Source: Prevotella sp.
GTDB taxonomy: Bacteria; Bacteroidota; Bacteroidia; Bacteroidales; Bacteroidaceae
DNA length: 64,000 nt
Direction of reading: 5' to 3'
NCBI GenBank assembly: GCA_022511065.1
Contig: JAFLSG010000005.1
Span: forward strand, 27,828 to 91,827
Part shown: positions 9,849 through 64,000 of the stretch, in pieces
Layout: the number at the start of each line of letters is the position of its first letter
Numbering within the stretch: position 1 is the first letter of the stretch
Notes under the pieces: model-generated
Told to the model about the DNA's origin: nothing
Database searches by the model: none
Seen by the model: the letters and a program-made list of their open reading frames with translations, nothing else
Translations under genes and position numbers: made by a program

Positions 9849-10223
9849 AAGGATTTCATTGAAACCTGCCGTTCACAAAATCTGGAAGAGCCTGTATGGA
9901 GTTCCAACTGCGGTTTTGTAACCGTGACATTCAAGCGTCCGAACGCTTCCCAATCGTCGGGTGATACCCCCCAAGTACCCCCCAAGTACCGACCAAGTAC
10001 CGACCAAGTTGCTCTGTTGATACGCTCTATAGGTGAACAATACTTGACAATGAAGGAGATGGCTGCCCTTTGTGGTTTTAGAAGCCTTCCTCATTTTAGG
10101 GAAATGTATATACTTCCAGCTCTCTCCGACGGGGCAATTGAACGATTATACCCCGAACAGCCCAACCACCCAAGACAGAGATACCGTCTTACGGATATTG
10201 CCAAAGAGTGGAAGAATCAGTAA
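9849..10223 (+). pseudogene. C-terminal remnant of an AlbA_2/RecG-like ATP-binding protein (winged-helix tail)
   Basis: Frame continues upstream of the ORF Met: ...KDFIETCRSQNLEEPVWSSNCGFVTVTFKRPNASQSSGDTPQVPPKYRPSTDQVALLIRSIGEQYLTMKEMAALCGF...; resembles the extreme C-terminus of such proteins, no upstream body. Confidence 0.6.
9971..10010. repeat. 11-bp tandem repeat (CCAAGTACCNN x3.6) inside remnant gene
   Basis: CCAAGTACC at 9971, 9982, 9993; CCAAGTT at 10004; exact 11-bp spacing. Confidence 0.85.
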
Positions 10224-10335: not shown

Positions 10336-10504
10336 ACGCGCATAGGATTTTGTGCTCGACGATGCGCCATTTTGTGCTCCGTCGTGCAACTGTGGAGCAC
10401 AAATCGAGGAACTGTGGAGCACAAAATGAGCAGTCGCGGAGCACAAAATGGCGCACGATGGAGCACAAAATGAGGTGTCGTCGAGCTGCAAGTGGAAAGT
10501 CGTT
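10336..10504. repeat. Array A: 22-bp periodic repeats, core GAGCACAAAATG, two inverse then four-five direct units
   Basis: Inverse cores at 10348 and 10370; direct cores at 10395, 10417, 10439, 10461, degenerate at 10483; all intervals 22 bp within each block. Confidence 0.9.
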
Positions 10505-10521
10505 TAGTGGGGATTTGAGTT

Positions 10522-46647: not shown

Positions 46648-46824
46648 ATCCCCCCGTCTCCTTTCATTTGAAGGAGGTATTCCTATCAGTCATGGGAATG
46701 CTTCCTACGAGTGAAAGAAATGCCTCCTATGGGGGTATAGGAGGCATCCCTTTGGGTCGTGGGAGATATTCCTTTGACCCGTAGAAAGTATTTCTTTCAC
46801 CCGTAGGAGAAGGGGTTACTCTTC
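46648..46824. repeat. Array D: ~7 tandem 22-bp units with quasi-palindromic 11-mer cores (GGARRYATTCC-like)
   Basis: Core centres near 46678, 46700, 46722, 46744/5, 46767, 46789, 46811; one 1-bp insertion near 46736. Confidence 0.85.
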
Positions 46825-62028: not shown

Positions 62029-62805
62029 ATGAAGAAACATATCCTTGACTTGCGGATCGTTTCGGTGGAGCGGATACACGATAAGTATGTGCTGCTGAAG
62101 CTGACCGACGATCAGCCTCTCCCGCCGATGCTGCCGGGACAGTTTGTGGAGGTGCGGATTGATGGCTCGCCATCTACTTTTCTCCGTCGCCCGATTTCCA
62201 TTCATTATATAGATAAGGTGCAAAATCAGCTGTGGCTGTTGGTGGCAACCGTCGGTGACGGCACGCGGTGGCTGGCTACGTTGCATGCCGGCGACTCGCT
62301 TAACTGTGTGCTGCCGTTGGGCAATGGCTTCACGATGGACGGCGCACCGGGCGACAAGATTCTGTTGGTGGGTGGCGGTGTCGGTACGGCTCCCCTGCTC
62401 TATATGGGTGCGGAGTTGAAGGCATCGGGCATCGAGCCAGTCTTCTTGTTGGGCGCACGCTCCGCGAAAGACCTGTTGATGTTGGATGAATTTAAGAAGT
62501 ACGGGCGCGTGTATGTGACCACCGAGGATGGCAGCGAGGGCGAAAAGGGATTTGTGACTAATCACTCCATTCTCACCCAGGAGCGTTTTGCCCGAATCGC
62601 CACGTGCGGTCCTACGCCGATGATGAAGGCCGTGGCTCGCTTTGCCCGTGAGGCTGATGTTGATTGCGAGGTCTCTTTGGAGAATTTGATGGCTTGCGGT
62701 CTCGGTGCTTGCCTCTGCTGTGTGGAAAAGACCACGGAGGGAAATCTGTGTGTCTGCAAGGATGGTCCGGTATTTAATATTAAGAAATTGTTATGGCAGC
62801 TTTAA
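62029..62805 (+). CDS. pyrK: Dihydroorotate dehydrogenase electron transfer subunit
   Basis: [39 protein letters not shown]. Confidence 0.92.
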
Positions 62806-63701
62806 ATGTAAATATTTCTTCTCTTGCGTTGAAGAACCCAGTGATGACCGCTTCTGGCACTTTTGGCTATGGTTTGGAGTTCGCCGACTTTATGCCGCTT
62901 GATGGCATTGGGGGCATCATCGTGAAGGGTACGACCCTCAACCCTCGTGAGGGCAATGACTATCCCCGTATGGTGGAGACTGCCCAGGGTATGCTCAACT
63001 GCGTGGGTCTCCAGAACAAGGGCGTCGATTACTTCTGCGAGCATATCTATCCGCAGATCTGCGATATCGACACGAATATGATTGTCAATGTCAGCGGTTC
63101 TTCTCCCGAGGACTATGCCGAGTGCGCTGCCCGCATCGATGCACTCGAAAAGATTCCCGCCATTGAGCTGAACATCTCCTGCCCGAATGTGAAAGACGGT
63201 GGAATGGCATTTGGCGTAACGTGTGCCGGGGCTGCGAGTGTGGTGAAGGCCGTGCGTGCCCGCTATCACAAGACGCTCATCGTGAAGCTCTCCCCGAATG
63301 TGACGGACATCACCGAGATTGCCCGTGCCGTAGAGGCGGAAGGTGCCGACTCGGTTTCGCTCATCAACACGCTGATGGGAATGGCGATTGACATTGAGCG
63401 TCGCCGCCCGCTGCTGAGCATCAATACCGGTGGACTGAGCGGCCCCGCCGTGAAGCCCGTTGCCCTGCGTATGGTGTGGCAGGTGGCGAAAGCCGTGAAG
63501 ATACCCGTCATCGGTCTGGGCGGCATCAGCAGCGCCCGTGATGCGATTGAGTTCCTGATGGCTGGAGCCACGGCGATTGAGATTGGTACGGCGAACTTCC
63601 TCGATCCGGCTGTCAGCATCAAAGTGCGCGACGGTATCAACGACTGGCTCGATGCCCACGGTTGCCAGTCAGTGCAGGAAATCATCGGCGTTGTGTCGTA
63701 A
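62793..63701 (+). CDS. pyrD: Dihydroorotate dehydrogenase B catalytic subunit
   Basis: [60 protein letters not shown]. Confidence 0.95.
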
Positions 63702-63776
63702 TCTGCCCCCTGTGACGTTCCTTGTCCCTGCCTCGTCTTGCTGGGTGCAAAGGTACGACACTTTCCCGGAGCGACT

Positions 63777-63836
63777 TCCGATTCTTGCACATTCTTGTCG
63801 ATTCTTTCCGATTTATGTCGATTCTTGTCGATTTTT
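63777..63836. repeat. 10-bp tandem repeat, consensus GTCGATTCTT, six units
   Basis: TCCGATTCTT, GCACATTCTT, GTCGATTCTT, TCCGATTTAT, GTCGATTCTT, GTCGATTTTT at exact 10-bp steps. Confidence 0.9.
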
Positions 63837-63867
63837 TGCTGAATTATCGCCGGTTTTGGGCAGAATC

Positions 63868-64000
63868 CACGCTGCTTGCTTTCTGCATCTGTGTTGCTTG
63901 TATCTTGTACCCAATTCGTGTGTACCCTGTGCTCAATTCGTTTGGAGGCTGAATTCGATGCGTTTGAAGCCTCCAAACGGTGTGAATTCAGCCTCCAAAC
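63868..64000. repeat. Array F: 22-bp periodic repeats with 17-bp perfect inverted repeat, running off window end
   Basis: CAATTCGT at 63912/63934, CGATGCGT 63956; AGCCTCCAAAC at 63968 and 63990; GTTTGGAGGCTGAATTC 63940-63956 / GAATTCAGCCTCCAAAC 63984-64000. Confidence 0.75.

Follow-up and report, generated by a model that had tools for sequence, protein, structure and literature searches.

A dispersed intergenic element at a Prevotella contig end is one of many sequence-unrelated array families with a 22-bp step

Described repeats and the contig-end locus

The open-access literature on comparable intergenic repeats in Prevotella and Bacteroidetes yielded only two systems, BrickBuilt and PINSR. 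BrickBuilt, the closest published relative that we found, is a minisatellite-MITE of Porphyromonas gingivalis with 23-nt tandem units at 19 loci; it has one unit sequence, no spacers, and a leader and tail with short terminal inverted repeats (PMC4596501). PINSR is a 188-bp repeat present in 177-184 copies in the Prevotella intermedia/nigrescens group (PMC4755523). Among other bacterial repeats, REP elements are palindromes of 20-40 bp associated with a Y1 tyrosine transposase (PMC2817692, PMC3733652), and a GTAG or CGTC tetranucleotide tag at one end is given as their mark (PMC3733652).

We examined a 64,000-nucleotide stretch of a Prevotella sp. genome (the window; C49:27828-91827, where C numbers denote contigs of this genome). 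Contig C49 has 91827 bases, and window position 64000 is its physical end. The genome around the window is incomplete, comprising 2.65 Mb in 103 contigs. The last gene before the arrays is pyrD, and its protein relatives with 91-93% identity come from rumen Prevotella, including Xylanibacter ruminicola; the best congener sampled shares 84% identity in pyrD DNA. Positions 63940-64000 hold one copy of F1, as we call an intergenic element that is dispersed in the genome and specific to this species; the contig end cuts this copy (Table 1).

Like BrickBuilt, the arrays described here are intergenic, dispersed, and species-specific, occur in Bacteroidales, have nearly the same tandem unit length, and are predicted to form stem-loops. 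They differ in having a 22-bp step composed of a 17-bp dyad and a variable 5-bp spacer, units in both orientations, and many unrelated unit families across the bacterial family. F1 itself shows neither the spacerless 23-nt unit nor the common ends of BrickBuilt: the flanks of 40 F1 arrays contain no shared leader, tail, or terminal inverted repeat, only segments common to small subsets. For comparison with MITEs, which have terminal inverted repeats and target-site duplications, no terminal segment was common to all F1 copies in this one genome. PINSR resembles these arrays in being lineage-specific within Prevotella, intergenic, multi-copy, and non-coding, with no terminal inverted repeats reported, but by its description it is set apart as a single incomplete 188-bp repeat from another sublineage with no reported 22-bp step (PMC4755523).

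The comparison with REP/BIME repeats is closer in some respects, as these too are species-specific imperfect palindromes in intergenic DNA that form mosaics with changing orientation (PMC2817692, PMC3733652), and F1 is an imperfect, intergenic, multi-copy palindrome. However, REPs have not been described as keeping a rigid 22-bp pitch in families unrelated to each other, and the GTAG/CGTC tag is not a conserved element of the F1 consensus and its spacer. A search for the RAYT transposase domain (Y1_Tnp, PF01797) gave no match in this genome (G000, 90.7% complete), with positive controls. Three further candidates were rejected. The 5-bp spacers recur between loci, which rules out a CRISPR array with its approximately 30-bp unique spacers and cas genes; no known structured RNA matched above the Rfam gathering score; and the exact two-unit F1 pattern had no match in 2.9 million viral contigs, giving no indication of phage origin.

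Table 1. Coordinates of the repeat features and neighboring elements (window positions unless a contig or locus is named)
Feature	Position	Strand	Basis
pyrD (dihydroorotate dehydrogenase), upstream neighbor of the arrays	62796..63701	+	Pfam PF01180, E=2.4e-81
Promoter-like -7 box TACCTTTG, reads leftwards, 20 bp from edge of 10-bp array	63748..63755	-	N20 exact in 4/4 copies
10-bp array, AAGAATCGAC on minus strand, separate module	63779..63838	-	lag-10 test; further copies C10, C38, C77
Degenerate 22-bp units in register with F1 (GCTTG/GTGTG/GTTTG...CTG)	63843..63939	+	lag-22 matches
F1 unit 1, GTTTGGAGGCTGAATTC, 17-bp imperfect dyad	63940..63956	+	PWM family, 159 units in sampled genome
F1 spacer GATGC, 5 bp	63957..63961	.	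spacer pattern RVNBY, middle base without information
F1 unit 2, GTTTGAAGCCTCCAAAC, near-palindromic inversion point of contig-end array	63962..63978	+	unit matrix, array-order comparison
F1 spacer GGTGT, 5 bp	63979..63983	.	sequence, array-order comparison
F1 unit 3, GAATTCAGCCTCCAAAC, exact reverse complement of unit 1, abuts contig end	63984..64000	-	unit comparison, fold
Second 22-bp array in window, unrelated unit GTGGAGCACAAAATGNNNNNNN, both unit orientations	10345..10505	.	period analysis
Third 22-bp array in window, GGAATGCTTCCTACGAGTNAAA-type unit, both orientations	46678..46818	.	period analysis
Copies of the 10-bp module	L031:3889-3936 (C77); C10:4425-4472; C38:69552-69599; window 63747-63794
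TGTGACGGAGTGACGGAAG-ended element beside F1	C1:151559 region; C16:55850-55950; C27:19520-19620; L009
ATAAGATGCCATCTTAT-like 21-bp-step family	C1:87825-87950; C1:109790-109966; C27:15914-16059; C49:14632-14734

The F1 element and its 10-bp neighbor

The three strong units at the contig end exceed shuffled sequence (p<=5e-5), and the perfect 17-bp inverted repeat described in the original prediction is confirmed in units 1 and 3, which lie around the central unit 2. The prediction had also placed weaker 22-mers upstream from about 63824 and had named 63824-63911 as the stretch where similarity at random level, together with no continuation past 64000, would refute it. That stretch gives 37/66 lag-22 matches versus 19.0 expected (p<=5e-5), with 22 the best of lags 8-39, and the degenerate units are in register with the strong ones (37/70 matches in 63843-63934, strong units excluded, versus 19.2 in shuffles, p<=5e-5).

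F1 units were collected with a position matrix built without spacing information, which recovered 159 units from the sampled DNA; this sample was picked partly by BLAST matches to the window, and the 806-kb contig sample used below was picked independently. F1 occupies at least 39 distinct places in the genome (40 of 91 candidates scored). Its consensus is a 17-bp imperfect dyad, GWWWKVAGSCTBMWWWC, followed by a 5-bp spacer, RVNBY, and its arms carry A or T at positions 2-4 and 14-16 in 97-100% of units, with A and T interchanging. Among neighboring units at most 50 bp apart, the step is 22 bp in 104 of 106 pairs, 21 bp in one, and 44 bp in one. Arrays consist of three (19 arrays), four (18), or five (3) units, with single and paired matches set aside, and fully direct arrays are common. 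The order of units and spacers is identical at several loci, as in the four-unit subfamily GTTTGAAGGCTGCAAAC gcatc GTTTGGAGGCTGAATTC gaccc GTTTGGAGGCTCCTTTC acatc GTTTGCAGCCTCCTTTC.

Units are about as alike within an array as between arrays (13.30/17 versus 13.20/17, p = 0.19), and spacer likeness is lower inside an array (2.66/5) than across arrays (2.94/5). Whole multi-unit arrays therefore seem to have been copied around. In complete copies, mean scores of in-register units fall off on both sides, from -21.7 (left) and -17.3 (right) one unit out to -33.6 and -32.2 two units out, against a background of -42.0. Together with the unit and spacer likeness, this symmetric decay favors dispersal of whole arrays over recent growth by tandem addition at one end. 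Ordinary minisatellite slippage and decay, in which one end grows while the other ages, would account for degenerate in-register units beside strong ones, but it predicts neither symmetric decay nor units and spacers that are no more alike within arrays than between them, and it leaves unexplained why unrelated sequences have a single period; we regard it as very improbable. The original prediction had read a growing right end and an ageing left end into the contig-end array and had the array continuing beyond the window. Neither idea is supported: the right edge is the contig end, where neither growth nor continuation can be observed, and arrays elsewhere normally stop at three to five units.

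F1 is largely confined to this species. A two-unit match (<=2 mismatches) occurred in only 1/59 other same-genus genomes, so that F1 was rejected as a widespread family, and weak F1-like units were seen in G055 and L133. Within the genome, F1 arrays occur in mosaics with other dispersed repeats, and the palindromic element TGACGGAGTGACGGAAG, among others, recurs beside subsets of them. We also observed a dispersed palindrome, AT-rich in its center and with TGTGACGGAGTGACGGAAG-like ends, that directly adjoins several F1 arrays. An F1 array lies a few hundred bases or less from the end of contigs C30, C35, C41, C77, C89, and C49, and on account of this proximity F1 probably breaks short-read assembly.

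The 10-bp array between pyrD and F1 is a module distinct from the 22-bp array. It had been described as six exact 10-bp steps merging into the 22-mers. The array itself is real (34/50 lag-10 matches versus 16.2 in shuffles, p<=5e-5); its copies form a family and are not exact, and a merger into the 22-mers as one process is not supported. On the minus strand, AAGAATCGAC...AAGAATGTGCAAGAATCGGAA is followed by exactly 20 bases and then TAnnTTTGC at C49, C10, C38, and C77. F1 lies on the far side of the module at 4/4 loci, but at C77 the two are approximately 300 bp apart. TAnnTTTG is, we take it, the -7 box reported for Bacteroides promoters, and the box here is promoter-like by its sequence. 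Downstream of the C77 module lie genes for an HU-HIG protein (PF18291, E=9e-15) and an amidase, and the modules at C49, C10, and C38 aim antisense into the 3' end of the neighboring gene. The module pattern (<=3 mismatches) was found in 0/99 other same-genus genomes.

A 22-bp step in unrelated intergenic sequences

F1 is one of many families that are unrelated in sequence and share one architecture: intergenic position, often imperfect dyads, and a step locked at 22 bp (also 21 and 33 bp). Genome-wide densities and array counts rest on an 806-kb sample of this genome, in which 31/184 intergenic regions of at least 110 bp contain a 22-bp-period array. When these 184 regions were scanned at lags 16-33 with a 60% self-match threshold, lag 22 was found in 31, lag 21 in six, lag 33 in four, lag 20 in two, and all other lags in none; ten rounds of Markov-resampled sequence produced no lag-22 array. 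The best lag per region was 22 (29 regions), 21 (7), 33 (4), or 44 (2), with three others. Unrelated units recovered by a lag scan of the 806 kb include GTGGAGCACAAAATG..., GGAATGCTTCC..., GTATTCAGCCTATATAC..., TATAGTGTTTA..., and TTGTGCGGATGATTTGCACAA..., and the 33-bp arrays are likewise of mutually unrelated sequence.

Dyad symmetry of the family representatives averages 0.490 compared to 0.416 after column permutation (sd of null means 0.0065), and 14 of the 34 families exceed their own 95% null, 34 being an undercount as the clustering chained many families into one. A period-11 A/T signal is enriched (0.138 versus 0.092, sd 0.016) but not dominant, with a period-4.4 A/T harmonic being as strong. 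Adjacent asymmetric units are direct in 30 cases and inverted in 6.

Several other short-period repeats were noted. Arrays with a 33-bp step, three turns of the helix, each built of a different unit, lie between genes at C1:2301, C1:134652, C7:9589, and window 61278. A second widespread family has a 21-bp step composed of a ATAAGATGCCATCTTAT-like 17-bp palindrome and 4 further bp, and some of its copies lie within predicted genes, where 21 bp preserves the reading frame. An 11-bp repeat, TACCCACCAAG (one helical turn), is present in four copies at window 9965-10009, near the 22-bp array that starts at 10345.

We compared 22-bp arrays across the clade with one criterion throughout and with simple repeats removed. 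Per 100 kb, this genome has 4.6 arrays, 80 named Prevotella-type genomes have 3.2, and a small sample of three congeners has 1.9. Sets of 20 regions each give 2.0 for other genera of the same family, 0.26 for other families of the order, and 0 for the remainder of the phylum (family versus order plus phylum, p=0.001). Array density falls with distance of kinship from this genome. Unit sequences vary by species: AAAAGGCCGTCTTTTG-like in L166, L176, and L177, AAACGGGCCGTTT in L162, ACGTAACATTGTTACACGGC in L180, CTACATGGGGCATGTAG in L191, and TTAACTAGTTAA-centered in L268, which is from another genus. A conserved array site behind pyrD was considered and rejected, with a clear 22-bp array at only 4/80 Prevotella loci (L146, L162, L164, L167), where the units differ from each other and the count does not exceed the expectation from general density. 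Simple repeats of heptamers (for example GAACATT, TTCAATG, CTCTTCA) are frequent in other Prevotella sequences (L129, L153, L163, L171, and L187), and in L153 one lies even just upstream of pyrD.

The dispersal of these arrays is open to a reading as non-autonomous mobile or selfish repeats of the MITE/BrickBuilt type, spread by a transposase or gene conversion without cell function, the 22 bp stemming from the copying machinery. Species-specific, dispersed copies at the level of whole arrays with the same unit order, the F1 mosaics, and the published analogue with 23-nt tandem units (PMC4596501) all fit. A single mobile family, however, would not predict one length in dozens of unrelated sequences together with 33-bp arrays, and the lack of ends common to all copies and of a Y1_Tnp gene also argues against it. 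We consider this origin possible, though rather doubtful as the whole account, and a purely mobile origin, if correct, need not exclude a function.

Placement in the genome bears on two further readings. None of 35 22-bp arrays lies inside genes called on hexamer usage. Divergent contexts are depleted (3/35 versus 48/145, p=0.003) and convergent contexts enriched (12/35 versus 24/145, p=0.03); arrays of different families often adjoin within one intergenic region (C1:42353-42679, C10:4135-4414). This placement would suit trains of RNA hairpins at gene 3' ends that act, like REP/BIME, in termination, mRNA 3'-end protection, or RNase processing, and strong hairpins are predicted for several F1 copies (z -9.3, -7.5, -5.0), with -37.3 kcal/mol and z = -9.25 for 63935-64000. 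Such an RNA function is nevertheless unlikely: the predominance of direct units means that a long hairpin is not shared, nothing in an RNA hairpin calls for a fixed 22-bp pitch, several arrays lie behind ordinary terminators, as judged by eye, and the best Rfam match, at 19.6 bits, fell far short of its gathering score (245). Selection against hairpins was also considered from a deficit of perfect palindromes in F1 (13 observed versus 26 expected) and rejected, as this deficit largely reflects runs of direct repeats.

Arrays of operators, one for each family and its ordinary transcription regulator, appear slightly less likely still. Dyad units at a helical-turn pitch do resemble cooperative operators, and at four loci the 10-bp array keeps a constant 20-bp distance to a -7 box, in one case upstream of the HU-HIG gene. 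The 22-bp arrays, however, avoid divergent regions, which contain only promoters, and both loci and families are too numerous for ordinary regulons.

Proposed helical phasing and a candidate DNA-binding protein

The fixed 22-bp step across unrelated arrays suggests that helical spacing, and not sequence, is maintained. The observed steps of 22, 21, and 33 bp, and almost nothing else, in unrelated sequences are those expected of a helically phased protein-binding array, with 22 and 33 bp read as two and three turns at 11 bp and 21 bp as two turns at 10.5 bp. The explanation that we favor, although we hold it at a little less than even confidence, is that the arrays are sites on one face of the helix for a candidate bending or oligomerizing protein. 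Cooperative binding or bending on one face would demand a fixed step, and a protein that reads DNA shape would tolerate sequence drift; the A/T content kept in the F1 arms while A and T swap fits such a protein. New arrays would arise mainly through copying of whole arrays between intergenic sites and not through slippage at one end, and unit sequences would diverge rapidly from species to species with the phase preserved. BldC of Streptomyces, which binds short direct repeats at promoters as cooperative multimers with strong DNA distortion, provides an analogy in mode of action only, its protected tracts lying one helical turn apart with varying repeat number (PMC5859096).

Some observations weigh against one-face binding. 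With units that change so quickly between species, either the protein would have to read shape or several proteins would have to co-evolve with the units. The period-4.4 harmonic equals the period-11 signal, and simple A-tract phasing is thus not the whole story. Several F1 arrays are also predicted to fold as long RNA hairpins; since orientation is mostly direct, however, a common long hairpin is not conserved.

More broadly, and with considerably less confidence, we propose that bacteria of this family may keep a sequence-tolerant, phase-locked intergenic DNA signal with a two- or three-turn step, present in approximately one in six long intergenic regions of this genome and read by a candidate bending or wrapping protein. 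The arrays may explain intergenic breaks in short-read assemblies of such genomes. Even if they are selfish, one 22-bp copying step in dozens of unrelated sequences would point to a new copying mechanism. If the proposal is true, the nucleoid or gene boundaries of the Prevotella group would carry an apparently undescribed positional code, detectable by period and not by sequence similarity, which would offer a handle on intergenic DNA organization in abundant gut and rumen bacteria and on a protein that measures 22 bp.
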